The notes under the pieces are model-generated. The model saw nothing but the letters and a program-made list of their open reading frames with translations. It did no database searches and was not told the DNA's origin. This document shows, in pieces, positions 2,990 to 52,275 of a DNA stretch of 64,000 nt. The translations under genes were made by a program, and so were the position numbers. The number at the start of each line of letters is the position of its first letter. The first letter of the stretch is position 1. This stretch comes from Burkholderiales bacterium (GTDB lineage Bacteria; Pseudomonadota; Gammaproteobacteria; Burkholderiales; Burkholderiaceae_C): the NCBI GenBank assembly GCA_947377275.1, contig CANCFV010000003.1, positions 1 through 64,000 of the forward strand. Reading direction: 5' to 3'.

Positions 2990-3577
2990 CTAGCCCAGGT
3001 CAGCAGGCGTGTCGATGTCGCGCAGCACGCCGGGGTCGTCAACCTGCAGCCGATGTGCCGCAGACCAGGCAATGGCGTGGCGCGCGCCCTCATCGCCTTG
3101 CAGCGCGCTCAAGGCCGGCAAGTGCGCCGCTGGCAGGCCGCGCGGATGGCCCATCTGGCCTGCGTGCACCGATACGACCGGATCGAACTGCGACGCCACG
3201 GCCTGCTGCAAAGCGCGCAACGTGGTGGCTTGCACAAAAGGCATGTCGGCCAAAGACAAGACCAAGCCTTGCAAAGCCCCGTCTGCCGCAGATGAGGCCG
3301 CCTGCGCCAGCACGGCACGCACGCCACAGGCCATCGAGTGGCCCATGCCCTGCTCGGCATCATCAGCCCACACCGGGGTCGCGCCCCAACGCTCGCAGGC
3401 CGCTTGCCCAAAGGCATCGCCTGGCCTCAGAACCACCCAGCACTGCGCGAAACAGGCCGTGTGCAGCGCCAGCACGGCATCGAGCACCGAGCGTCCGTCA
3501 GGCAACAGGGCTTGGCGCTTGTCAGACCCAAAGCGACGAGCTTGCCCCGCCGCCAGGATCAGCGCCTGCACGCTCAT
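2990..3577 (-). CDS. MocA-like molybdenum cofactor nucleotidyltransferase (MobA-like NTP transferase)
   Basis: A protein of 195 residues that opens with the nucleotide-binding motif LILAAGQARRFGSDK (the usual Ser is Ala), with a metal-binding SLADMPF motif near the middle. Members of this family add CMP or GMP to molybdopterin. MocA makes the cytosine dinucleotide form needed by xanthine dehydrogenase-type enzymes. The start is an ATGA overlap with the stop of the large hydroxylase subunit, so it is translationally coupled to the enzyme it probably matures. The genus of nucleotide (CTP rather than GTP) is inferred from this context, not read from residues. Confidence 0.85.
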   Translation of the reverse strand: MSVQALILAAGQARRFGSDKRQALLPDGRSVLDAVLALHTACFAQCWVVLRPGDAFGQAACERWGATPVWADDAEQGMGHSMACGVRAVLAQAASSAADGALQGLVLSLADMPFVQATTLRALQQAVASQFDPVVSVHAGQMGHPRGLPAAHLPALSALQGDEGARHAIAWSAAHRLQVDDPGVLRDIDTPADLG

Positions 3578-29161: not shown

Positions 29162-30603
29162 ACGCCGCCCGCGCACTCACCCCCTTGATGGCCGCGCTGG
29201 TGATGGCCGGCTGCGCCAACGCCCCTGTCGAGCCCGATGCCGAACTGAACGTGCCAGCCGCCTTCAAGGAAGCGCAGCCCACCGGCCAAGCCATGGCCCA
29301 GGCACCCGCCGGATGGAAGTTCGCCTCCCCACAAGAAGGCAGCGAACGCGGCGCATGGTGGTCTGGCTTTGAGGACCCCGCCTTGGAGCGCTTGCTCAAG
29401 CAAGCCATGGACAACAGCCCGACGCTGCAAGCCGCCACGGCCCGGGTCCAGGCCGCACGTTCGGCCCTGCGTGGCAGCCAAGCCGCCCAGATGCCACAGG
29501 TCGGCGTGAACCTGGGCGTGGCCCGCAGCAAGCCCAGCGCCGCTGAGCAAGGCTTACCCTCAGGCACGCAGGTCTCGCCGGCCACGGTGTGGCAAGCAGG
29601 CGTGGGCGCCAGCTACGAGGTCGACCTGTTCCGCCGCGTGGCCAACAGCGTGACCGCGTCCCAATTGGACTTGGCTGCCCTCGAAGCAAGCCACCGATCG
29701 GTGTTGTTGGCCCTGCAAGCCGACGTGGCGCAAACCTACTTCCAGTTGCGCACACTCGATGGTGACCTGGACGTGTTGTCACGTGGTGTGAGCTTGCGCG
29801 AGCAAACGCTGCAACTCATCCAAAAGCGCTTCGCTTCGGGTGACGTGTCTGAGCTGGACGTGAGCCGAGCGCAGACCGACCTGTCGAGCACCCGCGCCGA
29901 ACTGCAAAGCCTGCGCGGCACACGGGCGCGGACCGAACACAGCCTGGCCCTGCTGCTGGGCCAAGCGCCTGCGGCCTTCCAACTGCCCTCGCAGCCCCTC
30001 GCTGTGAACGCGGCCGTGCCAGCGGTGCCCGCGGGCCTGCCCTCTTCGCTGCTGGAGCGTCGCCCCGACGTCGTGGCCGCGCAAGCCCAGATGCGCGCGG
30101 CCTCCGCCCGCGTGGGGCAAGCGCAAGCCGCGCTGTTCCCGGCCCTGATGCTCACGGCCAATGGCGGCGTGGCGTCGTACGAGCTGCGAGACCTGTTCGA
30201 GCTGAGCGCGCGCTCCTGGCTGACCAGCGCGGTGCTGTCCCTCCCGCTGATCGACGGTGGACGCAACCGGGCGGTGATCGACCGGGCCGAAGCCCTGTTG
30301 GCCGAATCGGTGGCCAGCTACCGGCAATCGGTGTTGCAAGCCTTCGGTGACGTCGAGGGTCAGCTGTCCAGCCTGAGCAGCTTGCGCGAGCAATCGAGCT
30401 CGGTCGGCGAGGCCTTGGTGTCAGCACGGCGGTCGGCTGAGCTGGCCGACAAGCGCTACCGCGCGGGCGAAGACAGCTACCTCACCTTGCTGGACGCTCA
30501 GCGCAGCCAACTCAGCGTGGAGCGCCAGGCCCTGCAAGTGCGTGGCGCCTGGGCGGCCAGCACCGTGGGGCTGGTGCGTGCGCTCGGAGGTGACTGGCGT
30601 TGA
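29158..30603 (+). CDS. Outer-membrane efflux factor, NodT/OprM-type lipoprotein
   Basis: A protein of 481 residues with lipobox MAGC (Cys19). Two repeats of the TolC fold are visible, each with long helices: ARVQAARSALRGSQAAQMPQ in the first and AQAQMRAASARVGQAQAALF in the second. The family signature VGASYEVDLFRRVANS precedes the first beta pair. It forms the trimeric channel across the outer membrane for the RND pump. It overlaps both neighbours by 4 nt, so the pump, channel and MFS genes are translationally linked. Confidence 0.95.
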   Translation: MNAARALTPLMAALVMAGCANAPVEPDAELNVPAAFKEAQPTGQAMAQAPAGWKFASPQEGSERGAWWSGFEDPALERLLKQAMDNSPTLQAATARVQAARSALRGSQAAQMPQVGVNLGVARSKPSAAEQGLPSGTQVSPATVWQAGVGASYEVDLFRRVANSVTASQLDLAALEASHRSVLLALQADVAQTYFQLRTLDGDLDVLSRGVSLREQTLQLIQKRFASGDVSELDVSRAQTDLSSTRAELQSLRGTRARTEHSLALLLGQAPAAFQLPSQPLAVNAAVPAVPAGLPSSLLERRPDVVAAQAQMRAASARVGQAQAALFPALMLTANGGVASYELRDLFELSARSWLTSAVLSLPLIDGGRNRAVIDRAEALLAESVASYRQSVLQAFGDVEGQLSSLSSLREQSSSVGEALVSARRSAELADKRYRAGEDSYLTLLDAQRSQLSVERQALQVRGAWAASTVGLVRALGGDWR

Positions 30604-31823
30604 GCAACACCCACCACAGTCCCTTGCGGGCCCTCGTGGCCCAGACACCGTTCGCTCGGTTCTGGGTCTCGCGCGTGGCCGGCATCATGGCCAACCAGAT
30701 GCTGATGGTCGCCGTGGGCTGGCACATGTACGACCTCACCGCCAGTGCCTGGGACCTCGGGCTGGTGGGCCTGTTCCAGTTCGTGCCGGCCCTGTTGATG
30801 ACGCTGCCCGCGGGCCACATTGCAGACAGGCACCACCGTGCGCGCATCTTTGCCGTGTGCATGTTGGCGCAAGCCACGGTGGCCGCGGTGCTGTGGTGGA
30901 GCACCCTCAGCGGCGAGGCCAGCCGCAGCCTGATCCTGGCTTTGTCGGTGCTGCTGGGCGTGGCGCGCGCCTTTCAGATGCCGGCACAGCAGGCGCTCAC
31001 GCCCTTGCTGGTGCCGCGCGAGCTGCTGCAACGCGCCATCGCGGTGAGCTCCTGCGGCATGGAGATCGCTGTGATCGGTGGCCCGGCTTTGGGCGGTTTG
31101 CTCTACACCACCGGCGCCGCCACCGTGTACGCCCTGTGCAGCGCCTTGTTGTTGCTGGCCTTTGGGCTGTCGCTGCTGGTGCATTACCCCTTCACACCCA
31201 CCCGGCATGCCAGTTCGTGGTCCGACGTGTTCGCTGGCCTGCGCTTCGTGTGGGAGCGCAAGGTGCTGCTGGGCGCCACCAGCCTCGACCTGTTCGCGGT
31301 GCTGCTGGGCGGTGCCTCGGCCTTGCTGCCCATCTTTGCCCGCGACATCTTGCACACCGGCCCGCTGGGCTTGGGGCTGCTGCGCGCTGCACCAGCGGTG
31401 GGCGCGTTGACCATGTCCATCGTGCTGACACGCTGGCCACTGCAACGCCATGTGGGTGCGCGCCTGCTGGCCGCCGTGGCGGTGTTCGGGCTGGCCACCT
31501 TGGGCTTTGGCCTGTCGCAGAGTTTCTGGCTGTCGATGCTGATGCTGGCCATCACGGGTGCGGCCGACAACATCAGTGTGGTCACGCGCCTGACACTGAC
31601 CCAGCTCGAAACACCCGACGAAATGCGAGGCCGCGTGGCCGCCGTCAACAGCATCTTCATTGGCGCCTCCAACCAGCTCGGTGAGTTCGAGTCGGGCATG
31701 AGCGCCGCGGCCCTGGGTGCCGTGGGCTCGGTGGTGATGGGCGGCTTGGGCTCGGTCGCTGTGGCCGCCTTGTGGTGGCGCTGGTTCGCGCAATTGGCCC
31801 AGCGAGACCGCATCGAAGGCTGA
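30600..31823 (+). CDS. MFS exporter, coupled to the RND operon, TTG start
   Basis: A protein of 407 residues with twelve membrane helices, of the MFS group that includes EntS-like exporters (motif A as GHIADRHHRARIFAV). The start is TTG at 30600, overlapping the TGA of the outer-membrane factor. It is supported by a strong Shine-Dalgarno sequence, GGAGGTGA, 7 nt upstream and by a conserved N-terminus right after it. Placing an MFS pump behind a full RND tripartite set suggests hand-over of substrate from cytoplasm to periplasm. That link is inferred. Confidence 0.9.
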   Translation: MSNTHHSPLRALVAQTPFARFWVSRVAGIMANQMLMVAVGWHMYDLTASAWDLGLVGLFQFVPALLMTLPAGHIADRHHRARIFAVCMLAQATVAAVLWWSTLSGEASRSLILALSVLLGVARAFQMPAQQALTPLLVPRELLQRAIAVSSCGMEIAVIGGPALGGLLYTTGAATVYALCSALLLLAFGLSLLVHYPFTPTRHASSWSDVFAGLRFVWERKVLLGATSLDLFAVLLGGASALLPIFARDILHTGPLGLGLLRAAPAVGALTMSIVLTRWPLQRHVGARLLAAVAVFGLATLGFGLSQSFWLSMLMLAITGAADNISVVTRLTLTQLETPDEMRGRVAAVNSIFIGASNQLGEFESGMSAAALGAVGSVVMGGLGSVAVAALWWRWFAQLAQRDRIEG

Positions 31824-39333: not shown

Positions 39334-41457
39334 ATGTCGACGTCGTCAAGTCAGCCGTCCTCCCAGCGCGCGCCGCGCCTGCGCATCGCCGCACTGGCGC
39401 TGCCCGCCTTGGTGGTGCTCGGCGGCGCCGCGGTGGCCATCGCCGAAGCGCGCGGCTGGCCCTTCCTGCGCGCTCCGATGGCGCGCGGACTGGCCCGCGC
39501 GGCGGGCGTGCCGGTTGACTTCGGCCAAGACGCCGACCGCTTTGCGCTGAAGCTGATCGGTCGGCCGAGCCTGGAGGCCGCGTCGCTGACCGTCGGCGCC
39601 GCGCCCGGCCCTGCGGCGCCCTACCTGTTGAGCGGACGGGACCTTCGACTGGCGTGGCGTTGGTCCGACGCCTGGCGCTGGTGGCGTGGCAGCACGGCAT
39701 TGCGCGTTGCAAGCCTGGATGCGCGCACGCTCGACGTGAACCTGCTGCGCGATGGCGATGGCCGCGCCACCTGGCAGATCGGGCCCGGCGCCAGCAAGGG
39801 GTCGCCGCCGCCCGCGGGCCAGGCGCGGCTCGACCTGACGCAGATTGGGATGCTGTCGCTCGGCGGTGGCCGCATCGCCTTTGACGACCAGCCCTTGGCC
39901 ACCCAGCTCGTCGTCACCATCGAAGGCCGCGAGAACGCAGACGCCGGCAGTCGCAGCCAGTCCGGCTGGCACGCCCGCGTCGAAGGCCGCTGGAAAGCGC
40001 TGCCGCTGCGGTTGGCCGTCGTCACCGGCGGTGCGATGCCGTTGGTGGCCGACGTGACGACAGCCGACATCGGCTTGCGTGTCGAAGGCCAGGTCGGTTC
40101 GGCGCGCGTGGTCTTTGACGGCTGCGCTGGCGCCTTGCTGGGCGCGCTGCGCTTGGACGGCGAACTGAAATTCAGCGGCCCGTCACTGGCCCGCGTCGCG
40201 GCGCCGCTGGGCCTGTCCCTGCCGCAGACACCGCCCTTCGAGCTGGAAGGGCACCTCTCCCACGACCTTGGCCTGTGGCAGCTCAACGCGCGCCGCGTGA
40301 CCACGCGCAAGAGCCGGCTCCGTGGCGAGTTCCGCTACGACACCCGCACGGACCCGCCGAAGCTGACAGGCCAGTTGAATGGCACGCGGCTCGCACTGGC
40401 CGACCTGGGCCCGGCCATCGGCGCGCCCGCCAGCGGCACCGCCGCGGCGCCATCGGCATGGCCGCCGAACGCCGCGGGCCGCGTGCTGCCGCAACGCAAA
40501 TTCGATCTGCCCTCGTTGAAGGCGATAGACGCCGACGTGCAGGTGGCGTTCGACGAACTCGACTTTGGCACCGATGCGCTGGCGCCGCTGCGCAACGTCA
40601 CCACCCGCGTGGTGCTGAAGGCCGGCCGGCTGGCGCTGCAACAGCTGAAGGCCACGGTGGCCGGCGGCACGCTGAGCGGCACCAGTTCTTACGCCAGCAC
40701 CGGCGCTGCCGCCCAGTGGACTGCGCGCATGCGCCTGACGGGTGTCGACGTCGCCGGCTGGCTGCGCGGCACGCAGACTTCGCAAGCGGCCGACGCGCCG
40801 CCGGCGGCCCCGACGCAGACCGCGAAGCTCAAGCAGGAGCGCCAGCAGGCACGCCAGGGCGGCGACCAGTTGGTGCGCAACTACGTCACCGGTGCACTGG
40901 ATGCCGAGTTCGATGTGCGCGGCACGGGGGAATCAACCAGTCAGATCCTGTCGACGCTGAACGGCCGCTTCGACCTCACGCTGCGCGATGGCACGCTCTC
41001 GCACCTGGCCACTGAAGCCGCGGGCCTGGACCTGGCGCAGGGTCTGGGCGTGATCATCCGCGGCGACCGCCCGCTGCCGCTGCGCTGCGCGCGCATCCAG
41101 GCCACCGCGCGCAACGGCATCGTGCGCACCGACCGCGGCGTGATCGACAACGCTGACAGCACCTTGCTGCTGGCCGGCGAGCTGAACCTGAAGGACGAGT
41201 CGCTGGCCTTGGTGGCGACGTCCAGGCCCAAGGACTTTTCTCCGCTTTCATTGCGCACACCGGTCACCGTGCGCGGCACGCTCGCGCGGCCGCGCATCGG
41301 TGTCGAGGACGGCAAGCTCGTCGGCAAGGTGGGGGTGGCCGCGGCGCTGGGGGCGGCACTCGGGCCGTTGGCCGCGTTGATCCCCTTGATCGACTTCGGC
41401 CGCAAGGAAGCAGGCGATCCGTGTGCCGTCAATGCACGAACAGCGCAATCAAAATGA
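39334..41457 (+). CDS. AsmA-family protein
   Basis: A protein of 707 residues with one N-terminal membrane segment (about residues 15-37, IAALALPALVVLGGAAVAIA). A large periplasmic AsmA body follows, and the C-terminal AsmA core with GLDLAQGLGVIIRGDRPLPL and LVATSRPKDFSPLSLRTPV. Family members are linked to outer-membrane lipid transport. It ends in a hydrophobic stretch (AAALGAALGPLAALIPLI) and a short tail. The ATG at 39334 is the best of several. The last 29 nt overlap the tiny gene on the other strand. Confidence 0.88.
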   Translation: MSTSSSQPSSQRAPRLRIAALALPALVVLGGAAVAIAEARGWPFLRAPMARGLARAAGVPVDFGQDADRFALKLIGRPSLEAASLTVGAAPGPAAPYLLSGRDLRLAWRWSDAWRWWRGSTALRVASLDARTLDVNLLRDGDGRATWQIGPGASKGSPPPAGQARLDLTQIGMLSLGGGRIAFDDQPLATQLVVTIEGRENADAGSRSQSGWHARVEGRWKALPLRLAVVTGGAMPLVADVTTADIGLRVEGQVGSARVVFDGCAGALLGALRLDGELKFSGPSLARVAAPLGLSLPQTPPFELEGHLSHDLGLWQLNARRVTTRKSRLRGEFRYDTRTDPPKLTGQLNGTRLALADLGPAIGAPASGTAAAPSAWPPNAAGRVLPQRKFDLPSLKAIDADVQVAFDELDFGTDALAPLRNVTTRVVLKAGRLALQQLKATVAGGTLSGTSSYASTGAAAQWTARMRLTGVDVAGWLRGTQTSQAADAPPAAPTQTAKLKQERQQARQGGDQLVRNYVTGALDAEFDVRGTGESTSQILSTLNGRFDLTLRDGTLSHLATEAAGLDLAQGLGVIIRGDRPLPLRCARIQATARNGIVRTDRGVIDNADSTLLLAGELNLKDESLALVATSRPKDFSPLSLRTPVTVRGTLARPRIGVEDGKLVGKVGVAAALGAALGPLAALIPLIDFGRKEAGDPCAVNARTAQSK

Positions 41458-41503
41458 TGACAGGGATGGGAATGCCGAGAAAGAGCAAAAGCAGTGAGCG
41501 CAT
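41429..41503 (-). CDS. Tiny membrane peptide, 24 residues
   Basis: A 24-codon frame from the ATG at 41503 gives a peptide that is one hydrophobic helix after MRS, with a GIPIPVIILIALF core. A strong Shine-Dalgarno sequence, TTTGGAGG, lies 5 nt before the ATG, which is the main support. Similar very short GIPIP-type peptides occur in other proteobacterial genomes next to stress-related membrane proteins, to my recollection. It follows the membrane-protein gene on the same strand by 59 nt, so they may be one transcript. Confidence 0.65.
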   Translation of the reverse strand: MRSLLLLFLGIPIPVIILIALFVH

Positions 41504-41562
41504 GGTTGCCTCCAAATTTGAAGTGAGATGAGGTGAATCGAAACGTGCCGACCAGATTGGCC

Positions 41563-42558
41563 TCAGGCGTCTCGTTGCCGCCCGCCCACGGTGGCCGCCA
41601 AGCTGGCCACAAAAGCACCGCTCAGCAAGGCAATGAAGAGCCACAAGGCGGCGTAGGCCGATGCCTTGCGCGCAGTGTCAGCGGCCTGAACCAGTGCGGT
41701 CTGCGCATCACGCAAACTGGCTTGTGCGCGGGCATACGTGTCGGTCACGCGCTTTTCGGCTTCTGGCTGCAACAGCCCGGTGCGTTGCGTGACCAAGTGA
41801 CCCACATAGCGAACATCCTGCGCGGGCAACGCCTCCATGTGAATGGTCGTCATGAAGATGCGAGCGACTTCAGCCAGACGCACTGGCGTGACGGGGTCCA
41901 CAGTCCCACTTTGCATCGCGCGGCCACCCACAGGCGCAGCGCTTGCGGCCATCGTGGTGTCTCTTCGGAACAATGAATCGATGAAGTAGTCCATGGTCGT
42001 GGTCATGCCATCAGACTTCGCCGCTTCAGAGCCTGCCATGGCCGCAGCGCCAGTCGTGGCCGCCGCAGCGGTGCTTGCGATGCCACCCCCAACCGAAGCC
42101 CCAGCTTGCACGCCGCTGTTGGTGATCGACCCAATCACCGAAGTCAACAACGCTGCTGTCACCAGAGAGGACACCGCCCACGCCAGAAAGCCGTGAACCG
42201 TGTCGCGGAAGTAGATTTCATCGCGATGAACTTCCACCCACTTGGTTCTGAGCCTGCCGGCCAGGTAGCCGCCCATGCCTGAGGCCACCAACTGTGTGAA
42301 CGTGACCCACAGGATGGTCGATAAGCCAAAGGCGGCCTTGCTGATGCCATCGTGTGCCCATGGAGAGACGGAAGAGAGCCCCAATCCCGTACCCAGCATC
42401 AACAGGATCAAAGAAAGTGCGGCGGCCCCAGCGGCCCCAGCAAAAATGGCAGCCCAAGACACGGGGCTGGAAGAAGCCGACGCGGTTGCGGCATACGCAT
42501 CGGGCTGCGGGCGTTCACGCCCTGGGTTACCCATGGTGGCGGTGGTCGGAAGGGCCAT
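41563..42558 (-). CDS. Hypothetical multi-pass membrane protein
   Basis: A protein of 331 residues with predicted membrane helices near residues 33-58, 72-98, 120-145 and 300-325. Between the third and fourth lies a Gly/Ala-rich loop and a helical soluble region (EAEKRVTDTYARAQASLRDA). AGGA stands at the right distance before the start. I do not know a function. The layout (three clustered helices, a coiled soluble part, one C-terminal helix) suggests an envelope-stress or sensor-like role. The tiny peptide gene follows it. Confidence 0.78.
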   Translation of the reverse strand: MALPTTATMGNPGRERPQPDAYAATASASSSPVSWAAIFAGAAGAAALSLILLMLGTGLGLSSVSPWAHDGISKAAFGLSTILWVTFTQLVASGMGGYLAGRLRTKWVEVHRDEIYFRDTVHGFLAWAVSSLVTAALLTSVIGSITNSGVQAGASVGGGIASTAAAATTGAAAMAGSEAAKSDGMTTTMDYFIDSLFRRDTTMAASAAPVGGRAMQSGTVDPVTPVRLAEVARIFMTTIHMEALPAQDVRYVGHLVTQRTGLLQPEAEKRVTDTYARAQASLRDAQTALVQAADTARKASAYAALWLFIALLSGAFVASLAATVGGRQRDA

Positions 42559-42983
42559 GATGAATCCTGAAGTGCAATCGCAAAATCATGGCCTGATGAG
42601 GCTGGTGGCACGGTGCGTTGGCGCACAGAGTGCTGGCATCGCCCCCTGCCGCACTTGAGCCACACGTGAGCAGACGAAGCGCACTCTTGGTTGATCTCGG
42701 ATGCGCCGCGTCGAGCGATTTCCGGCAGCGAATCTGAGAGTCGCTGTAGCCTGTGTGGGTCAGCAGCGCGAGTTCGCCGCCAGCCAACGTCAGTTTCTAG
42801 CGCAGACCTGCCATTGCTCGGCACAATCCAGTAAGCAACGGAGGTGTTCGTGTTCTCGCTGTCCAATATGGCTGATTGGTTGGTGCCCCCGGGGCCGTTG
42901 TCCGCGGTGTGATGGCTGGCCGTCAATGAGCCTTGACAGGGGCGCCCTGAATGGCGCCAACACGTTGGCCGCAACAAGTGCAC
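42559..42983. other. Gap without a supported gene
   Basis: About 425 bp between divergent genes. Small open frames occur on both strands, but they lack ribosome sites and recognisable motifs. A GGGCGCC/GGCGCC imperfect hairpin lies near 42939-42958. The segment may hold promoters for the membrane protein and the cupin gene. Confidence 0.45.
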
Positions 42984-43652
42984 ATGACCATGCTAGTGAA
43001 CTCCGACTTCTCGCACCGCGTCACAGTGACCGCAGATGAACACCACTGGGTGCCGTCACCGCAGTCCGGTGTGACGCGCGCAATGCTGGACCGCCTGGGC
43101 GGCGAGCAGGCTCGGGCCACGAGCCTGGTGCGGTACGCGCCGGCATCGATGTTCCCGGCGCACAGTCACCCCGGCGGGGAGGAGATCCTTGTGCTGTCGG
43201 GCACCTTCTCGGACGGCAGCGGCCATTACGGGCCTGGCTGGTACCTGCGAAACCCGCCGGGCTCGGCCCACCAACCCTCGAGCGTGGACGGCGCGCTGAT
43301 CTTCGTGAAGCTGTGGCAAATGCCGGCAGACGACACGCGTGCCTTGCGCGTCGACACACACGATCCCTCTGTGTGGCGACGTGACGGGGCGCACGAGGTC
43401 TGCTTGCTTCACCGGACCGACCATGAGCAGGTCAGCCTGCTGCGGCTGCTGCCGGGCCACGCGCTGCAGCCGGACGCACGAGGCGGCGCCGAACTTCTGG
43501 TACTTGATGGCCAGTTGCTTGACAAAGCCACCGTGCTCGGTCCATCAGGCTGGCTGCGGCTGCCGCCTGGAGACGGCTCAGAACTCCGCGCCGGCGCCTT
43601 TGGGGTCACGCTCTACCTGAAGACCGGTCACCTGGCTGGGTTCGCGACATGA
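42984..43652 (+). CDS. ChrR-like double-cupin protein
   Basis: A protein of 222 residues. The first half has the ChrR-type cupin pattern SLVRYAPASMFPAHSHPGGEEILVLSG (in pieces: FPAHSHPGGEEILV) with the usual His-x-His and Glu ligands, and the second half repeats the fold (LLRLLPGHALQP, LVLDGQLL) without the His pair. ChrR itself is an anti-sigma factor with an N-terminal zinc domain, which is missing here, so this is a free cupin protein, perhaps a sensor. ATG at 42984 or 42990. Its stop overlaps the start of the broken amine oxidase gene by ATGA. Confidence 0.85.
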   Translation: MTMLVNSDFSHRVTVTADEHHWVPSPQSGVTRAMLDRLGGEQARATSLVRYAPASMFPAHSHPGGEEILVLSGTFSDGSGHYGPGWYLRNPPGSAHQPSSVDGALIFVKLWQMPADDTRALRVDTHDPSVWRRDGAHEVCLLHRTDHEQVSLLRLLPGHALQPDARGGAELLVLDGQLLDKATVLGPSGWLRLPPGDGSELRAGAFGVTLYLKTGHLAGFAT

Positions 43653-44549
43653 CGACACCCATCACCCGAATTGTCATCGTGGGCGGCGGCTTGGCCGGAA
43701 GCCGGTGACTTGCTCGTCGAGCGGTCGACCCAGCAGCCGCCTCAGCGCATGCGCAGTCATGCCAGCGACCCGCCGTCGATGCGGCTGGCTGGTGGCACCG
43801 GTGCCCTTGTTGCCGCGTTGAATGCCCGACTCGATCCCGCGATCGTACGCACCGGGCAGACTGTGCGCCGCCTGCGTTGCGAGGCGACCCACGTCGAGCT
43901 GACGGTCGACGACGCGGACGGCAAACAGACGACCTGCCAGACCGAGAAAGTGCTTCTGGCTCTGCCTCCGCGACTGGCCGCGACACGGCTGCAATTCGAT
44001 CCCCCGCTGCCCTCCGATCTGGCGCGCTGCAGGCAGGGGACGCCGACTTGGATGGCACCGCACGCGAAGTACGTGGCTGTTTACGACTCACCGTTCTGGC
44101 GCGAACAGGGACTGTCCGGCGGCGCGCGCAGCAGCGCTGGCCCGATGGGTGAGATCCACGACGTCTCGATGCCTGGCGGTCACCCAGCGCTGTTCGGATT
44201 CCTGAGCGTGCCGGCGCGGGTGCGCCGCCAGGTCAGTGACGAGGTGCTGCGAAGGCACTGCCGGGCGCAGCTCGTCCGGCTGTTTGGCGAGCGGGCCGGT
44301 ATGCCGCTGGGCGACGCCTTGCAGGACTGGGCAGCCGAAGCGCTGACCGCGACCGATGACGACCAGGACGCCGCAGGCCACCATGCTGCACCACCGCCGA
44401 GCAGCCCCGATGGGGGCGCATGGCAAGGCCGTTTGATCGGCATCGGCAGCGAATGGTCTCCGCTGTTCCCGGGCTATCTGGCCGGGGCGGTCGATGCTGC
44501 CGAGCGCGGCGTCCAGCAAAGCGTTGCGGCTTCAGAGAAGTCTCGCTGA
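43649..44549 (+). pseudogene. FAD-dependent amine oxidase, internal deletion plus frameshift
   Basis: The ATG at 43649 opens a frame that reads the FAD motif RIVIVGGGLAG and then hits TGA at 43706, after only 19 codons. The next frame carries the C-terminal part of the same family: MRLAGGTGALVAALNARL, FDPPLP, then the substrate domain, and GRLIGIGSEWSPLFPGYLAGA, which is the closing FAD contact. The stretch between the N-terminal dinucleotide fold and the RLAGG block, about 180 residues in relatives, is missing and the frame is changed at the joint near 43700. It cannot give a working enzyme. The upstream overlap with the cupin gene shows they were once co-translated. Confidence 0.85.
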
Positions 44550-44762
44550 AGGACTGTAGCCAGCGTGAAGCCGTTACGGTCGCCGGCAGCTCCGCAGCGG
44601 GAGGCGGTCAAACCAGGGCTCGTATCCGAATGAGAAAGCGTGAAGGAGTCCGCGGCCGTTCGCTTCAGATTTTGAACAAATCGACGAAATATGTAACTGA
44701 TTGACCCGCCCGACGTGCCCCTCGGCCCAACAAGGCGTGGGTGTTGCAATCGACCAGACCCA

Positions 44763-47700
44763 ATGAGCATGAACGTCCGCCCCGAAGTCGCGCTGCCCAT
44801 CCAGGCGCCCGCCCATCCCCGTTCGCTGGGCTGGATCGGTACGACGGCGCTCGCAATGGGCGGTAGCAATCAGAGCCTGTTCATCCTGGCGGCTCTGTTC
44901 ATCGGTCAGGGTGAAATACTGGGCCAGGGCACGGCCGCAGTGCCGCTGCTTTGGGTCGGCTTGCTGCTGGCGTGGGCGGCTGCGCCCGGCTGGACCGAAC
45001 TGGTGCTGATGTATCCGCATCGGGTCGGTGGCATCGCTGCCACTTGCACCGAAGCATTCCGGCCCTACAGCCCGGTGCTGGCCAACCTGACTGGCGTCTG
45101 CTACTGGTGGGGCTGGGTGCCGACCTGCGGCATCACCGCCATCCTGTCGGCTTCGGCCATCCACGAGTGGTATCTGCCGGGCATCCCGATCAACGCGCTG
45201 GCCATTGCGCTGGTGCTCGCGTTCACGCTGCTCAACCTGGCCGGCATCCGCTGGGTCACGCGGCTGGCCGTGCCGGTGGCCAGCGCATCTGCCCTGCTGG
45301 CTTTCGTGTCGGGACTGGCACCCATTTTCGCCGGTACCGTCGACTGGCATACGGCCACCACCTTCACCCTGACCACGCCGTTCAGCGGCTGGTTCGGTCA
45401 GCTCACCAGCCTGATGGCCGGGCTGTATCTGATCGGCTTTGCCGCACCCGCCTTCGAGGCTGCCGCGTGCCATGTGGGCGAGGCCATCGATCCCGCCAAA
45501 ACGATCCCGCGCGCGATGCGGGCCAGTGGCCTGCTGGCCGGCATGTTCTTTGTCGTCCTGCCGCTGGTTTGGCTGGGCAGCCTGGGAGCCGAGCCCCTGG
45601 GCAAGGACCTGGCCCTGGTCCTCGGTCCCACGTTCGCGCCACTGTTCGGCAACTTGGCCAAGACCGTCGCCATCTGGTTCATGGTGCTGGGCATGTTCTC
45701 CGGCACGCTGCAGCCCCTGGCCGGCGCCTCTCGCACGCTGGCCCAGCTGTCGGAAGACGGCCTGCTGCCGCGCATCCTCGCGCGCCGTTCACGCACCGAT
45801 GCACCCTGGGTCGCGACGCTGCTGACCGCCGGCATGGCCATCGCCTTTCTGCTGATCGGCGACCCGATCTGGCTGATCGCAGCGGCCAACTTCACCTACC
45901 TGATCAGCATCACGCTGCCCAGTGTGGCCGTCTGGCTGCTGCGGCGCGATGCGCCGCAGATGCACCGGCCCTACCGAGCACCGCGCGGCACCATCGGGCT
46001 GGGTCTGGCCGCTGCCGTGGTCTGGGGCTGTGCCGCTCTGCTCGGTTTCGAGCAGTACGGGCTGTCGACCGTGCTGATTGGCCTGGCATTTGCCTACTCG
46101 GGCTCGGCGCTCTACGCCTGGCGCAAGTACGAGGACCGCCGACGCGCAGGCCTGCCCGGCTTGGCCGGCTCGCTGCAGCTCAAGCTGACCGGCGCGCTGG
46201 TGGGCGTGCTGGTGCTGGACGGGGCCGGCTACCTGCTGGCCGTCAGCAACCTGCCACCGCAGCAAGGCGCGCTGATGACAGGCCTGGCCGACATCTTCGT
46301 GGCCGTCGCGATGCTCTCGATCACGGTGGCGCTGCTGCTGCCGGGCATGATCGCCAACTCCGTGCTCGAAGTCGCCAGCGCCGCCAGGCGGCTGACCGCC
46401 GGCACGCTTGAAGACTTCTCGCGAGCGATGAATGCACTCGGCCGTGGCGATCTCGATGCCGCGCACGCCCGCGTTGACATCACGCCGGTCAGCATCACCA
46501 CCAGCGACGAGGTCGGCGAAATGGCGGCCAGCTTCAACACGATGCAGGCGCAGATCGGCTACGCCGCGGTCGGGTTGGTCGGCGCCCGAGAAGGTCTGCG
46601 CGAGGCACGCGATGCCCTGACCGACGCCAACGACCGACTGGAGCAGAAGGTGGTGAAACTGCACCTCGCCGAAGAGAAGCTGTCCGGACTGCTCGAGTCG
46701 ATCGACAACGTGGTGTGGTCCATGTCGCTCGAGACCGGCGATCTGCTCTACCTCAACCCGGCGGCCGAACGCATCTACGGCCGCCCGGTCGATGCGTTTT
46801 TTGCCGATCGGGATCTGTGGCTGAGCATCGTGCACGCGGACGACCGCGAGCGTGTGCTGGCCCGCCTGCAAGGGCCGTTTCAAAGTGACACCATCAGCTC
46901 CGAATATCGCGTGGTGCGGCCCGACCGCAGCGAGCGCTGGCTCGAGGACCGGGCCCGCGTCATCCGCGGACCGGACGGCGCGTTGCTGCGCCTTGACGGC
47001 ATCGCCACCGACATCACCGAGCGCAAATCCCATGCCGAACGCATCGCTCACCAGGCCAACCACGACGCATTGACCGGCCTGCCCAACCGCAACCGGCTGA
47101 ACGACCGGATCGAACAGGCGCTGGCCTTGGCGCGACGCAGCGGCCAGCACGTGGCGGTGTTGTTCATGGACCTGGACGGCTTCAAGTTTGTCAACGACAG
47201 CTACGGCCATCCGTTCGGCGACGCGCTGCTGTGCACGGTCGCCGCGCGCCTTCAGGTCGTGGTCCGCGAAAGCGATACGGTGGCCCGGCTGGGCGGCGAC
47301 GAGTTCCTGATCCTGTTGCCCAGCCTGGACCGCGCCGAGGATGCACAGCAAGTGGCCGCCAAGGTGCTCGATGCGTTCAAGGTCCAGATCTCGCATGGCG
47401 GCCGCGACCTGCAGCTGAGCGCCAGCATCGGCATCAGCGTGTTTCCCGACGATGGTGACGATGGCGCCTTGCTCTTGCAGCATGCCGACGTGGCGATGTA
47501 CCACGCCAAGGCCCAGGGCCGCAACCGCTACCAGTGCTACGCCAGCGAAATGGGCATGCAGGCGCAGGAGCGCATGGAGCTTGAAGGTGCCTTGCGCATG
47601 GCGCTCGAACGCCAACAACTCGAGGTGCACTATCAGCCTCAGGTCGAACGCGAGAGTGGCCGCATCGTCGGCGTCGAGGCGCTTTTGCGCTGGACGCACC

Positions 47701-48353
47701 CCACGCTGGGCAAGGTTTCCCCCGCACGCTTCATCCCTCTGGCGGAAGAGACTGGCTTGATCATTCCGATCGGTGAATGGGTGCTGCGCACCGCCTGCGC
47801 CCAGGCACAGTCGTGGCATGCGGCGGGGCACGGGACCCTGAGCGTCGCCGTCAACATGTCGGCCCGCCAGTTCCAGCAACAGGACGTGCCCGCTCTGGTG
47901 GGCCATGTCCTTGCGGCCACAGGATTGCCTGCTCGGTTCCTGGAGCTGGAGCTGACGGAGTCGGTCTTGATGCACGACACCGATCAGGTGGTCCGCACCA
48001 TGCAGCGGATCAAGCAGCTCGGCGTGCGGCTGGCCCTCGATGATTTCGGGACTGGCTACTCGAGCCTGAGCTATCTGAAGCGATTCCCGATTGACGTGCT
48101 GAAGATCGACCAGTCCTTCACCTTCGAGGTGGCGCGTGATGCAGGCACCGCCTCGATCACGCGCGCCATCATCGCGATGGCGCATTCGCTGCAAATGACA
48201 ACGGTCGCCGAGGGCGTCGAAGACCAGGTCCAGTTCGACTTCCTCGCCGAGCTGGGCTGCGACGTCATGCAGGGATATCACATCGCCCGCCCCATGCCGG
48301 CAAACCAAGTCACGGCGCTGCTCGATGCGGAGCTGCGGCTCGAAAAGCAATGA
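44763..48353 (+). CDS. APC amino-acid permease fused to HAMP-like, PAS, GGDEF and EAL domains
   Basis: A single frame of 1196 residues. Residues 1-450 are an APC-family permease with about twelve helices, including GGSNQSLFILAALFIGQGEI and EAAACHVGEAIDPAKTIPRA. Two further helices (about 475-540) lead into a HAMP-like linker (540-600) and a coil. A PAS domain follows (640-750, LLYLNPAAERIYGR). The GGDEF domain has an intact LGGDEFLILLP (844-848), and the EAL domain an intact VGVEALLRW (972-974), ELTES, DDFGTGYSSL (about 1093) and KIDQSF. Both cyclic di-GMP synthesis and breakdown are possible. The permease may act as a sensor or as a working transporter. Either way the fusion ties amino-acid uptake to cyclic di-GMP. 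ATGs at 44763 and 44769 are both possible, and no clear ribosome site is seen. Confidence 0.93.
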   Translation: MSMNVRPEVALPIQAPAHPRSLGWIGTTALAMGGSNQSLFILAALFIGQGEILGQGTAAVPLLWVGLLLAWAAAPGWTELVLMYPHRVGGIAATCTEAFRPYSPVLANLTGVCYWWGWVPTCGITAILSASAIHEWYLPGIPINALAIALVLAFTLLNLAGIRWVTRLAVPVASASALLAFVSGLAPIFAGTVDWHTATTFTLTTPFSGWFGQLTSLMAGLYLIGFAAPAFEAAACHVGEAIDPAKTIPRAMRASGLLAGMFFVVLPLVWLGSLGAEPLGKDLALVLGPTFAPLFGNLAKTVAIWFMVLGMFSGTLQPLAGASRTLAQLSEDGLLPRILARRSRTDAPWVATLLTAGMAIAFLLIGDPIWLIAAANFTYLISITLPSVAVWLLRRDAPQMHRPYRAPRGTIGLGLAAAVVWGCAALLGFEQYGLSTVLIGLAFAYSGSALYAWRKYEDRRRAGLPGLAGSLQLKLTGALVGVLVLDGAGYLLAVSNLPPQQGALMTGLADIFVAVAMLSITVALLLPGMIANSVLEVASAARRLTAGTLEDFSRAMNALGRGDLDAAHARVDITPVSITTSDEVGEMAASFNTMQAQIGYAAVGLVGAREGLREARDALTDANDRLEQKVVKLHLAEEKLSGLLESIDNVVWSMSLETGDLLYLNPAAERIYGRPVDAFFADRDLWLSIVHADDRERVLARLQGPFQSDTISSEYRVVRPDRSERWLEDRARVIRGPDGALLRLDGIATDITERKSHAERIAHQANHDALTGLPNRNRLNDRIEQALALARRSGQHVAVLFMDLDGFKFVNDSYGHPFGDALLCTVAARLQVVVRESDTVARLGGDEFLILLPSLDRAEDAQQVAAKVLDAFKVQISHGGRDLQLSASIGISVFPDDGDDGALLLQHADVAMYHAKAQGRNRYQCYASEMGMQAQERMELEGALRMALERQQLEVHYQPQVERESGRIVGVEALLRWTHPTLGKVSPARFIPLAEETGLIIPIGEWVLRTACAQAQSWHAAGHGTLSVAVNMSARQFQQQDVPALVGHVLAATGLPARFLELELTESVLMHDTDQVVRTMQRIKQLGVRLALDDFGTGYSSLSYLKRFPIDVLKIDQSFTFEVARDAGTASITRAIIAMAHSLQMTTVAEGVEDQVQFDFLAELGCDVMQGYHIARPMPANQVTALLDAELRLEKQ

Positions 48354-48838
48354 CGCGCACGGCGCACGATGTTCAACTTTCCAAGGTGGACAGCGTGCGA
48401 CCCGCCCGCTCAACGTCGCGCGCCAGATCGGCGTATCCGTGCGAAGCGTGCAACGCTGGGTCGAGCTGGGTCGCTCGCGAGCTTGGAAGACGATCATGGC
48501 GCTCCAGTGACCATCACCCTCCCTTGCGAATGAGTTGATGAGACTTCGCACTTCCCATCGTGGTGCTGAGCGACCGGTCGCCTCTGCGCGGCTGGTTCGC
48601 GAGGGGAAGTCCCGTCCATTCGCTGAGCGTCGGCTTTCAGGCGGCTCAGTCGGCATTGTCAAAGGGCGCCAAGGGTCGTTTTAGCTGCCCCCCCGTCAGA
48701 CCCACACGGGGTGACCGCGCCCAGCCTGTAGCTGGCACTCGGCGCGCTGTGCGGGCTGCCGTACAGACCGACCCGCGGCGCTCCGACACGCTCAACTCGT
48801 GGCCGCTCCATTTTGATCGGCCAGGACAAGGCAACCCC
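48354..48838. other. Gap with a possible helix-turn-helix relic
   Basis: About 485 bp without a complete gene. At 48412-48510 a plus-strand frame reads ARQIGVSVRSVQRWVELGR and a stop, which looks like the end of a helix-turn-helix protein but has no start or ribosome site. The rest shows only short, unconvincing frames. A promoter for the thioredoxin gene should lie near the right end. Confidence 0.45.
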
Positions 48839-49219
48839 ATGACCCAGCAAGTATCCGCGTCAAGCCAGGGCGCCAGCAGCGTCGCCCACGACCTCATTCC
48901 CAGTCTCGACGCCGCCGGCTTTGCGTCGCATGTGCTGAGGGGGCAGGGGCCGATTGCGGTGGAGTTCATGTCCTACAGCTGCGCCTATTGCGGCGCGATT
49001 GAGCCGGTCTTGCAGCAGGTGGCCGAGACGCTGCGTTCGCAGGAGGCGGTCTACAAAGTGAACGTGGCGGTGGAGCAAGAGCTGGCCAGCACTTACGCGA
49101 TTGAGGGCACACCGACGCTGGTCATGTTCTCGCAAGGCCAGGAGCTTGGGCGGGCCGAGGGTGTACACCCGGATGCGGCAAGCGTGCTTGAGGCACTGAC
49201 GGCGCCATTCAGGTCATGA
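48839..49219 (+). CDS. Thioredoxin-family protein
   Basis: A protein of 126 residues. The active site reads EFMSYSCAYCGAIEP (Cys48, Cys51), a CAYC motif in place of CGPC, and the cis-Pro loop is GTPTLVMFSQG. It has no signal peptide, so it is cytoplasmic. The chemistry (Ala-Tyr between the cysteines) suggests a more oxidising or substrate-specific thioredoxin. AGGACAAGG lies before the ATG. It overlaps the DCC protein gene by 4 nt, so the pair works together. Confidence 0.9.
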   Translation: MTQQVSASSQGASSVAHDLIPSLDAAGFASHVLRGQGPIAVEFMSYSCAYCGAIEPVLQQVAETLRSQEAVYKVNVAVEQELASTYAIEGTPTLVMFSQGQELGRAEGVHPDAASVLEALTAPFRS

Positions 49220-49788
49220 CGGCTGCTGCAGGCCTCGGCACCGCTGCAGGGCCGACCACACCGATCCTGCTGTTTGACGATGAGTGTGCGGTATGCCGTC
49301 GCGTGGCGCGCTGGACGCAAAGCATTGCGCGTGATGAGGCGGGCACGCCTACCGTCGACGTGCGCGCCATTGGCGAGGACCCTCAAGCCATGCGGCGACT
49401 GGACCCCAGGCTCGACATGTGGAAGCTCTATGCCCAAAACCACCTGCTGATGCCCGATGGGACCATCCTCCTGGCCGGTGAGGCCGTGGCCGAGGTCTTC
49501 AGGCGCTCGCCAAGCATGGCTTGGTGCGCCCGGCTGTGTTCAATCCGTGTCTTCAAGGTGCGGCCCTTTCAGAGCATGCTCGACTTGGGCTACGTGATCC
49601 TGTCTGACGTTCGGCCGATCTTCGGCTGCAAGAGTTGCGGTAAGCCGGCCTGGTGGGCCAGGCCATTTGCATGGCTCGTTAAGTTGGCGACCAAGTTCAC
49701 CGGCACCGAAACGCGCACCCCGCAGCGTCCGCACTTTACGCCGCGAGCTGGTGCCGGCGGGGCCAAGCCATTGCCGCCGGCACAATAG
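49216..49788 (+). CDS. DCC1-like thiol-disulfide oxidoreductase family protein (DUF393)
   Basis: A protein of 190 residues with the family motif ILLFDDECAVCRRVARW (Cys24, Cys27) and a later helical part. A Cys pair, GCKSCG, lies near residue 137. The tail is rich in Thr, Pro and Gly. DCC proteins have a thioredoxin-like fold and are named for the Asp-x-x-Cys-x-x-Cys motif. It is translated with the thioredoxin gene (ATGA overlap). The shared role may be disulfide handling; no substrate is known. Confidence 0.88.
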   Translation: MTAAAGLGTAAGPTTPILLFDDECAVCRRVARWTQSIARDEAGTPTVDVRAIGEDPQAMRRLDPRLDMWKLYAQNHLLMPDGTILLAGEAVAEVFRRSPSMAWCARLCSIRVFKVRPFQSMLDLGYVILSDVRPIFGCKSCGKPAWWARPFAWLVKLATKFTGTETRTPQRPHFTPRAGAGGAKPLPPAQ

Positions 49789-50014
49789 CGTCTCGTCCCC
49801 CTCTTTTTGGGCGGCCCACCGCGACGGGTTGGAAGTACCCGAGTAAGGCTCAATGCCGAGCCGATCGCGGCTTTGCAGCGATTGCCGCCGATGATGTCTG
49901 CCCCCTGAGATCACAGTCCGGGCCACACAGTGGTCATCCAGGCACCAAAGCACTGAAGGTCACCATCGAGGGCTCGCCGAGCACTGGCATGAAGACGCGG
50001 CGAGGCAGGCCCGA

Positions 50015-51154
50015 TTAACTTGGAATCATCCTGGTTTCTCCGGCCCGGCGCTGGCGCTTTCGGGAGACCCCGAGCACTGTACCGAGTCCGGCCAGCACCA
50101 TGGCCCAAGCCCCAGGTTCGGGCACTGCCGCTGCCACCGCGACCAGGTTGGCCGCGCCGTTCTGCGCGCCGAGGTAGCTTCCAATGTCTCCCAGGCCAGG
50201 GTTCGAATCCGAGCCTTCCAGAATGGCGTGGTTGTCGATGGCATCGTACTGGCCGCCGAACTTGTAGAACTCATATCGGCGCAGGATGGATGCGGCATTG
50301 GGCCCGACAGGCGCACCATAGCCGCTTTCAAGAATGCCGGACAAGGGGTTGCCAGGATCCTTTTGGAGCAGCTGCCACTCGGTCTCCGTCTTCAGGTTTT
50401 TGAGCGCGGCATTGCCACCGATCAAGTCCTCCAGCTGGGGGGCATTTTCCAGCTCGGTCGTGAACACCTTGACCCATATAGCCGTGCCCCATTGGGCTTC
50501 GGGCTTTTCAGGGGGCTGGACAGGTGCTGGGGCTTGAATCACGGCAGCGACGACAGGCGGTGCAGGTGGCTGTCCGACCGGTGGCTGCGCGGCAGGAATG
50601 ACGTTCCACACCGGTGCGGGCAGGTTGACGATGCTGTTGTTCAAAACCCCTGAGTTGGGCGCGGTCTCGGTCAGCCAGCTGTACGTGGTCTTGGTTGCGT
50701 TCGCTCTCACACCCACACCGAAGTGGTCGCAGGGCGTGCTGGCGTTGTAGCCAAGGCCGCCACCCGACCAGCAATTGTCGCCAGGGGTGATGAAGGAGCC
50801 GCTGGGGGTGCCGTAATCCCACGACGAGCCGTTGAACAGGCCCTGGTAGACGACCTTGGTGCCGAAGACGCCGCCGATCGCGTACTCGGAGATCGTCGGT
50901 GAACCGTATCGCTCCACACTGCCGGAGCCGAAACCGCGACCGGTGGGGAAGCCACGACCGGCACCGCCGAACGTGTCGGTGATGTCACTCGCGTGCAGGC
51001 CTTCAAGGTCAATCTCGAAACCATGCGCTTCTTTGCCGGTGTCGTTGATGACGTCGAAATTGCCCAGAAACCCGATCACCGCAGCCGACGAAACGGCTGG
51101 AGCCAAAGCGAGGGCCGCAACGGCAGACACCAGGGAAAGCTTGAATCGCCGCAT
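50015..51154 (-). CDS. PEP-CTERM-anchored surface protein
   Basis: A protein of 379 residues with a signal peptide (VSAVAALALAPAVSSAA). The C-terminus has the full sorting signal: VPEPGAWAMVLAGLGTVLGV, then a basic cluster RKRQRR. Exosortase would cut there and attach the protein to the envelope or release it into exopolysaccharide. The middle has a Gly/Ser/Asn-rich region (residues 60-150) and a Pro-rich linker (about 195-225, PPVGQPPAPP). No exosortase gene is in the window. AAAAGG lies before the ATG. Its role may be in biofilm, as proposed for the family. Confidence 0.9.
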   Translation of the reverse strand: MRRFKLSLVSAVAALALAPAVSSAAVIGFLGNFDVINDTGKEAHGFEIDLEGLHASDITDTFGGAGRGFPTGRGFGSGSVERYGSPTISEYAIGGVFGTKVVYQGLFNGSSWDYGTPSGSFITPGDNCWSGGGLGYNASTPCDHFGVGVRANATKTTYSWLTETAPNSGVLNNSIVNLPAPVWNVIPAAQPPVGQPPAPPVVAAVIQAPAPVQPPEKPEAQWGTAIWVKVFTTELENAPQLEDLIGGNAALKNLKTETEWQLLQKDPGNPLSGILESGYGAPVGPNAASILRRYEFYKFGGQYDAIDNHAILEGSDSNPGLGDIGSYLGAQNGAANLVAVAAAVPEPGAWAMVLAGLGTVLGVSRKRQRRAGETRMIPS

Positions 51155-51230
51155 GATGAACCTTTTCGTTTGTAGAAAGAAATGGAACTTGTCGCCATTG
51201 GGTCTGGAATGCCTCGCAGAAGCACCAGCA

Positions 51231-51256
51231 TTAAATGTGCATTCTACACATTAAAA
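51231..51256. promoter_or_regulatory. AT-rich inverted repeat upstream of the PEP-CTERM gene
   Basis: TTAAATGTG and CACATTAAAA face each other across a 7-bp centre. The island is much richer in A and T than its flanks and lies 77-102 bp before the start on the minus strand. It may be an operator or a promoter element of the PEP-CTERM gene. Confidence 0.4.
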
Positions 51257-51450
51257 GTGTGCAATCCTTGCCCTAGGCGCAGCGTTGCATGGCGGAAAGG
51301 TGTCTCGCAAGCGGCTACAGTGTGTTCAGCGTTTGTTGGCGCCGAGCCAGAACGGAGCCAGTGGACCGGTCGAAGCGGCGCTGACTGAGCCTCGACCGCG
51401 ATGTGGCCAAGACCGTGAGCGCAGAGCATGAATGAACAGGACGGCCAACG

Positions 51451-51852
51451 ATGGATTGGCTTCGATCTGCCAACACGCACGAGCACGCGCAAGGCCTGGA
51501 TGCGCGCATCATCGATGTCGGTCCCAAGTGGGTGGTTGTGCGCCTGAACAGCGACAGAGAAGTTCATCAGCTACAACCTGACTTGGCGCACATGGCCACT
51601 TGCGACCGCACATGGGGTACGGTGGGCATCACCGAAGACCCGGTGTGCGGCAGCGGCAACGGCTGCGTGGCCGCATTCATCCGTGAACTGGCTCTGCCCG
51701 GCCTTTTCCCTGAAGGCCACATCGCCGGGCAAGGCATGGCCATCGGTCGAAACGGCCGTGTACGCATCGGCTATGTCGACGCCACCATCCACGTTACCGG
51801 ACAGGCCATCACAGTCATCAGCGGACACATGACGCTTCCTCTCACACGTTGA
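51451..51852 (+). pseudogene. PhzF-family isomerase, C-terminal half only
   Basis: A frame of 133 residues that begins in the middle of the PhzF fold: IIDVGPKWVVVRLNSD, then ITEDPVCGSGNGCVAAFIREL, which is the second-half signature, and IGRNGRVRIGYVDATIHVTG to the end. Normal family members are about 280-300 residues and start with a strand holding the catalytic Glu. That first half is missing, and the 290 bp upstream show no trace of it. AGGA before the ATG could still allow translation of the fragment. Confidence 0.8.
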
Positions 51853-51864
51853 CGCCGTTGCATC

Positions 51865-52275
51865 ATGGCCGACATCATTTTTCATGCCCACGAAGCAGAT
51901 GCACCTGCGATCGCCACCCTGGTCAATCGTTCGTATCGACCAACTTCTGACAACGCTGGCTGGACCCATGAAGCAGCCTTGGTTTCAGGGCCACGCACAT
52001 CGGCAGAGCAGGTTCGATCTCTGTTCCATGATGGCTCCGCTGTCTTGATCATGAAACGCGACGACACCCTGATCGCCTGTGTGCATGTCTTGAACGAAGG
52101 TGATGCCTGCTGGATTGGCATGCTGGCCACCGAGCCCCAACTGCAAGGGCAAGGCGTCGGCAAAGCCATGCTGGACGCAGCAGAGCTTCTCGCCCATGCG
52201 ATCCGACCTCTTGCTCAGGTCGATGGTCAAACACCTTTCTCCCTTCTCTGGCTGACATGCGCCCTCGCAAACTGA
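51865..52275 (+). CDS. GNAT acetyltransferase, C-terminus lost
   Basis: A protein of 136 residues with the GNAT fold up to the acetyl-CoA motif QGQGVGKAMLDAAELLAHA. Relatives are about 160-170 residues and end with a strand-helix-strand (R.ELI.WYER.GY type). Here the sequence after residue 112 changes to IRPLAQVDGQTPFSLLWLTC, which is not the family. So the last 50 residues are gone, replaced by sequence that overlaps the start of the next gene by 19 nt. Activity is unlikely, but the fragment is still open. Confidence 0.75.
   Translation: MADIIFHAHEADAPAIATLVNRSYRPTSDNAGWTHEAALVSGPRTSAEQVRSLFHDGSAVLIMKRDDTLIACVHVLNEGDACWIGMLATEPQLQGQGVGKAMLDAAELLAHAIRPLAQVDGQTPFSLLWLTCALAN

Follow-up and report, generated by a model that had tools for sequence, protein, structure and literature searches.

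The stretch of DNA analyzed here, called the window, comprises 64,000 nucleotides (positions 1 to 64,000 of contig CANCFV010000003.1, assembly GCA_947377275.1) from a Burkholderiales bacterium. It carries a gene that joins an APC-family permease to domains of cyclic di-GMP (c-di-GMP) signaling. The gene occupies 44763–48353 of the forward strand, as do all of its features given below, and translates as a single open frame of 1196 amino acids with one terminal stop; in-frame start candidates are ATG at 44763, ATG at 44769, and GTG at 44715. Pfam placed AA_permease_2, HAMP, PAS_3, GGDEF, and EAL in the protein, all above curated cut-offs. The permease match (residues 22–419, 44826–46019, E 6.5e-37) is a full-length family match, with 127.9 bits against a cut-off of 27 over profile positions 1–400 of 427, and the 12-helix body extends to about residue 461 (46145). 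It is followed by an added two-helix hairpin of transmembrane helices TM13 and TM14, seen in the alignment and structure model (about residues 471–528, 46173–46346), and by HAMP (residues 544–598, 46392–46556, 30.4 bits against a cut-off of 25). A coiled-coil linker (residues ~599–637, 46557–46673) is suggested by helix in the models, the full-length one being of low confidence, and by heptad phasing in relatives. The output half consists of PAS_3 (residues 662–748, 46746–47006, E 4e-17), GGDEF (residues 765–922, 47055–47528, E 9e-52), and EAL (residues 943–1177, 47589–48293, E 5e-78). No SSF (SLC5) match was present among the 11 Pfam families found in the protein at E up to 0.1.

A preliminary description of this DNA had read permease, PAS, GGDEF, and EAL as one frame, and both the domain search and the translation agree. 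Its concern that the N-terminus might prove to be another membrane sensor was settled by the AA_permease_2 match. It had also placed the GGDEF motif (residues 844–848, 47292–47306), the EAL motif (residues 972–974, 47676–47684), and the DDFGTG and KIDQSF signatures of the EAL half (the latter within LKIDQSF) correctly. The linker that it called HAMP-like passes the Pfam HAMP cut-off, but the conserved hairpin ahead of it had been overlooked. An RxxD I-site (RESD, 47265–47276) begins nine residues ahead of the GGDEF motif. Alignment of 17 of 19 c-di-GMP members of the family described below (L067 and L080 were left out) showed G845, D846, E847, F848, E972, N1031, E1063, D1093, D1094, K1114, E1150, E1153, and Q1170 to be invariant and G844 to be conserved at 90% or more. 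Judged by these residues, which we take to have the catalytic roles usually assigned to them, both catalytic sets are predicted to be intact in the window protein.

An assembly or frameshift error that fused separate permease and GGDEF-EAL genes, a possibility the preliminary description itself wished to see checked, has nothing in its favor and is extremely improbable. The order permease, hairpin, HAMP, and output recurs in dozens of independent assemblies, which excludes chance or an assembly join, and the module runs into an output domain at 74 further loci in many assemblies. Isolates are included, namely Glaciimonas immobilis, Roseiarcus fermentans, Actinoplanes palleronii, Mesorhizobium, and Verrucomicrobia IMCC26134.

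Relatives were sought by scanning genome contigs with the first 546 residues of the protein, which yielded 131 stretches and 103 relatives, of which the best 80 were kept. These 80 share 58–84% identity over a permease-plus-hairpin module of ~530 residues. Since the seeds were exact peptides of the window protein alone, the count is a lower bound biased to near relatives. A tree of the permease columns was built from 78 rows, the window and 77 loci (L053, L073, L080, and L002, the last being the window itself, were left out). Its rows fall in Pseudomonadota (36, with the window), Verrucomicrobiota (27), and Actinomycetota (11), with one each in Chloroflexota, Omnitrophota, and Dormiibacterota and one unranked. 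Single phylum labels may be wrong because most relatives are metagenome bins, though some are isolates. Among 72,556 plasmid records, one, a 1.09-Mb Paraburkholderia record, carries a copy. The family was found in two of 41 genomes (the window's own and relatives), with none in the 24 other genomes of the genus. Scoring in two phylum samples covered the three or four leading candidates of each genome. In one sample, one of 398 genomes had the family, the window's own; in the other, centered on a Verrucomicrobia member, two of 288 did, namely this member and one already known. A class sample gave two of 274 genomes, found via the trimethylamine N-oxide (TMAO) permease model. The family is thus rare and patchy, yet sharply conserved. 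Rarity combined with high conservation across phyla would fit gene transfer, and the phylum label switches 8 times on the permease tree (minimum 5); we infer that the family may have spread in this way.

The sensing module is constant in the family and its outputs are exchanged. C-termini were scanned with Pfam for the window and 74 of the 80 loci. HATPase_c was found in 56 and GGDEF in 19, together accounting for 75 of 75. HAMP was found in 71 of these C-termini, receiver domains in 34, EAL in 18, and HD-GYP in one; the kinase types were HisKA (45), HisKA_2 (6), and HisKA_3 (3). By domain content, c-di-GMP is a minority output (19 of 75), and the family is predicted to act mostly through histidine kinases. 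The preliminary description was right that an APC permease on a GGDEF-EAL protein is unusual, and CbrA, which it cited, is the right analogue; what escaped it was the wider family, in which the c-di-GMP form is the lesser part. The HD-GYP case is actinobacterial (L067:7585–9012) and carries the same sensor with GGDEF and HD-GYP in place of EAL. Among the six unscanned loci, two run off the contig end, L035 after a HisKA motif and L036 before any output. In the other four a break precedes the output, and the next frame reads as a kinase (L043, L025, L053) or a GGDEF domain (L069). These four were considered as free-standing copies and rejected, as a by-eye reading showed the output continuing in another frame or after a stop.

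Output class was mapped on the permease tree using 77 labeled rows, 58 kinase and 19 c-di-GMP (L069 included). It switches 7 times (6–8 in bootstraps) against a shuffled mean of 17.2, and at least 5 switches are forced by well-supported branches. Output types are therefore clustered on the permease tree, yet repeatedly swapped. No free-standing copy of the module was found in 36 host genomes, where the 38 strong matches (62–86% identity) all lie in frames of at least 863 amino acids and the next APC protein stands at 27% identity and 63 bits. Nothing here resembles an incidentally captured transporter; the module has no free-standing form in the examined genomes and is probably a dedicated receptor.

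Constraint on the module is uneven. Over 78 rows, columns with one residue at 97% or more number 45 of 120 in helices 1–3 (residues 18–137) and 19 of 42 around helix 6 (204–245), compared with 79 of 323 in residues 138–460 (TM6 included); the hairpin region has 19 of 85, and HAMP has 5 of 55. In APC transporters, the substrate site is bordered by helices 1, 3, and 6. The helix-1 break carries the motif GGSNQ (residues 33–37, 44859–44873), in which G33, G34, N36, and Q37 are invariant over 64 family rows. Family and APC alignments also mark a helix-3 motif, CYWWGWVPTCG (residues 113–123, 45099–45131), and a helix-6 motif, GFAAPAFEAAACHVGE (residues 225–240, 45435–45482). In a profile comparison, the 16 matches to solved APC structures start at profile positions 136–143, so helices 1–3 seem far diverged from known APCs while near-fixed within the family; as a counterpoint, the Pfam profile aligns from residue 22.

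The fold of the sensing half was examined with an AlphaFold model of residues 1–619 built on an alignment of 64 family rows. Its mean predicted local distance difference test score (pLDDT) was 88.6, and it contains the 12 APC permease helices followed by the hairpin. Foldseek ranked LAT1, BasC, y+LAT1, and SLC7A10 at the top, with AdiC slightly lower (E ~1e-11), and target-normalized TM-scores to LAT1, BasC, and AdiC were 0.78–0.80. In this model, the protein has the 12-helix LeuT-type fold of the APC family (2.A.3). The hairpin helices, 471–495 and 502 onward, are the less sure part (local pLDDT ~76–87), and the modeled helix 502–560 runs unbroken from TM14 into HAMP (local pLDDT ~76–92). A full-length model had a mean pLDDT of 60.2, with the permease mostly below 50, and was used for secondary structure only.

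The spacing of relatives bears on how the two halves are coupled. Linker distances were taken from 79 C-termini, nine of which gave no distance (L053 and L069 were outside the set). Among the 37 kinases with fewer than 100 residues between the invariant DE of HAMP and the phospho-acceptor histidine, 34 have distances of 60, 74, 81, or 88 residues, which form one heptad class. Short GGDEF members (<170 residues) behave similarly, 8 of 11 sharing a heptad class (112, 126, 161, 168); no phase is common to the longer linkers, which leave space for inserted domains. This phasing suggests a coiled-coil relay, short of proof. Together with the continuity of the model, it supports the signal route through linker helices, HAMP, and coil that had been proposed for this protein.

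These distances also bear on whether the permease senses at all. It might serve as a membrane anchor or as a transporter on a tether, with the signal entering through PAS or another internal cue; the window protein has a PAS domain, and passages of PMC7096432 state that CbrA signals without its SLC5 domain and that the CbrA PAS binds histidine. Against this, the 60–88 residues between the HAMP DE and the phospho-acceptor in 37 relatives are too short for a PAS domain, and L013, L014, L037, and L060, scanned singly, have none. With so many linkers too short for it, PAS appears optional and the permease the constant part, and the permease is more conserved than HAMP. We consider the anchor explanation quite unlikely.

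Among NCBIfam models, the TMAO permease, NF053774, matches the permease best, at 130.9 bits, followed by one at 71 and the ethanolamine permease at 58; the 130.9 bits lie below the NF053774 cut-off of 690. An unrooted APC tree was built from 40 rows, eight sensors, six labeled TMAO permeases, and 26 others. The sensors form their own clade (support 100/100), and the sensors, the TMAO permeases, and L139 lie on one side of a branch (support 100/97). One of the 26 other rows, L127, passes the TMAO permease cut-off. L139 (G253 contig C23) is an APC protein below that cut-off that groups with the TMAO permeases and has W..W.P in helix 3.

In sensors and TMAO permeases alike, the helix-1 break is longer by two residues than in most of the other APC rows, with exceptions, and the W..W.P of helix 3 (W115, W118, P120) is common to both. 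TM1 of the sensors departs from most other APC rows, which carry no assigned substrates here, and so does the TM5 stretch. The kinship with TMAO permeases, the longer helix-1 break, and W..W.P point away from a standard alpha-amino acid and toward a ligand that is probably a small amine or an N-oxide. An ordinary amino acid is what the Pfam name, amino acid permease, would imply, and the best Foldseek matches are amino-acid transporters, which form the majority among the APC structures listed. The TMAO permease, however, leads the other NCBIfam models by 60 bits and is the nearest clade, and GGSNQ differs in length from most other APC rows as the TMAO permeases do. The canonical APC motif for the alpha-carboxyl group is GSG. 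We therefore regard an ordinary amino acid as an unlikely ligand. Of the amino acid or amine first suggested for this protein, the amine type is the part favored, and ordinary amino-acid uptake is the less likely part. On contig C8 of G712, the Methylotenera genome that hosts L037, a family member of the kinase type (3021–4337) and a true TMAO permease (30142–31752) lie ~26 kb apart, possibly by chance.

The gene neighborhood was examined as a further clue to the ligand and set aside, as nothing is conserved across the family. Of the 144 nearest open reading frames (ORFs) from a simple caller, with those >900 and <110 amino acids dropped, 102 were scanned; there was no conserved neighbor, non-signaling families each occurring in at most two of these 102 adjacent ORFs. 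Signaling domains among them were receiver (8), HisKA (3), and HATPase_c (2). Ten chosen downstream neighbors of kinase members comprised five hybrid kinases, two OmpR-type proteins, one HD-GYP protein, and one bare response regulator; the tenth had no match. Five kinase-type members (L014, L031, L045, L065, and L072) may form a two-gene phosphorelay: the sensor gene runs at its end into the following ORF, which encodes a hybrid kinase carrying two or three receiver stretches.

In the window itself, a flavin amine oxidase remnant lies just upstream of the gene (43649–44546, forward strand; C-terminal half, PF01593 profile positions 196–440 of 443). Of its N-terminal part, another frame retains only a short stretch, which includes the dinucleotide-binding glycines; because the FAD-binding half is gone, the remnant is no evidence of an operon. 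A ChrR-type cupin protein (Cupin_7; 42951–43649, forward strand) stands immediately ahead of the remnant. A PEP-CTERM protein is encoded at 50018–51154 on the reverse strand. It had been called an orphan and taken, speculatively, as a hint of a biofilm link. Three exosortase (EpsH) homologues are present on other contigs of the genome, so the protein need not be an orphan, and with family neighbors not conserved the link is not supported. An RNA-family search of 40000–52000 gave one match, far under the gathering score, on the opposite strand and ~3 kb off. A pattern scan of 44500–48700 showed no promoter-like site and 5 terminator-like sites against 2.0 expected, none of them on the forward strand 3′ of the gene.

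Comparison with known systems places the family among bacterial transceptors. Passages of PMC7918813 and PMC9100948 describe SLC5/STAC or SSS-domain sensors as widespread in bacteria, the introduction of PMC7096432 mentions SLC5/STAC proteins with a diguanylate-cyclase domain, and CbrA is presented in passages of PMC13022988 as a rare single-chain transporter plus histidine kinase. Like the SLC5/STAC transceptors (CbrA, CrbS/MxtR, RpuS, PrlS), the window family puts a LeuT-fold transporter and a signaling output on one chain across broad phyla. Unlike them, it is built on APC/AA_permease_2 with no SSF match, is coupled by the TM13/TM14 hairpin and HAMP with no other Pfam domain between permease and HAMP, and has tandem GGDEF-EAL members. 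As to a four-helix STAC linker, Pfam, which may lack a STAC model, and the structure model place the hairpin and HAMP after the permease. The 5TMR (S-component-fold) receptors combine a transporter-like membrane fold with exchangeable kinase, GGDEF, or EAL outputs, according to passages of PMC11109136. The window family resembles them in using a transporter-like fold as receptor with freely exchanged outputs, and differs in that its sensor is a full 12-helix APC permease. The 5TMR membrane fold is smaller and unrelated to APC. The nearest transporter clade, the TMAO permeases of NF053774, has the longer helix-1 break and W..W.P of the sensors but is free-standing without a signaling part, the above-cut-off frames measuring 547–602 amino acids, with one of 704. 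APC-type permeases also act as nutrient sensors in LysP-CadC, yeast Ssy1, and Gap1, working on separate partners and not through a fused output. A passage of PMC7096432 counts LysP among signaling-linked transporters, and Gap1 is termed a transceptor in excerpts of the literature. No published account of an APC permease fused to HAMP, GGDEF, or a kinase appeared among the matches listed from Creative Commons-licensed PubMed Central literature, a scope outside which subscription papers and the original STAC paper lie. The window family is a kind of bacterial transceptor that differs in transporter family, HAMP coupling, and GGDEF-EAL use.

Taken as a whole, the protein is probably a receptor in the membrane that senses through an APC-fold permease and is coupled to a PAS-GGDEF-EAL output. 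A small ligand would bind the central pocket of helices 1, 3, and 6, as their invariance and homology suggest. Binding, or a transport cycle, would change the conformation and shift the TM13/TM14 hairpin, whose last helix is modeled as running on into HAMP and then the coiled coil, with the measured heptad phase kept in most short-linker relatives. Movement of HAMP and coil may then, via PAS, alter the packing of a dimeric GGDEF-EAL output and tip c-di-GMP synthesis against breakdown; relatives join the same module to histidine kinases.

Several observations weigh against this receptor. Passages of PMC7096432 report that the transporter domain of CbrA was not required for signaling and appeared to modulate the kinase, and that histidine left kinase activity in vitro unchanged; since the transporter can be deleted without loss of signaling, a fused permease alone is no proof of a sensor. 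Three of the 37 short kinases are off-phase (L019 and L044 at 78, L060 at 87), as are 3 of the 11 short GGDEF fusions. Because related sequences are not independent, the distances were recounted as distinct lengths, and four of six in one class then arise by chance in ~3% of draws for each set. The 36 genomes searched for free-standing copies were picked as holders of a member, and relatives were seeded from the window sequence alone. Several rows of the APC tree sit on long branches. A TMAO permease above cut-off is present in 4 of 37 carriers and missing from 33, many of them incomplete bins, which weakens the ligand hint; TMAO itself was rejected as the ligand on this weak co-occurrence.

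The protein could also be a true transceptor, in which the permease still transports and the transport cycle, not simple binding, sets c-di-GMP output. An entire 12-helix APC body is present in a high-confidence model, and CbrA, the best studied analogue, transports histidine according to passages of PMC7096432 and PMC13022988. Against transport stand the lack of a free-standing relative in the 36 genomes, the absence of a conserved catabolic neighbor, and a TM1 unlike that of most other APC rows, with a differing TM5 stretch; all of these are compatible with transport all the same. We judge this account improbable on balance, if still a serious contender. A bolder form of the receptor reading would see in the permease a sensor that does not transport and is dedicated to a small methylated amine, an N-oxide, or a similar organocation. 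It would be an undescribed receptor class that has moved between phyla and been joined, through domain exchange, to kinase, GGDEF-EAL, and GGDEF-HD-GYP outputs; this we put forward tentatively, as a doubtful proposal.

Fused bacterial transporter-receptors are known mainly from SLC5/STAC, and for CbrA, the best studied of them, sensing by the transporter is a matter of dispute. A second family, with another transporter type, HAMP/coiled-coil coupling, and natural output swaps, would make it directly testable whether a permease fold signals by binding or by transport. Biosensors based on c-di-GMP or on kinases could also draw their ligand modules from such an APC family.

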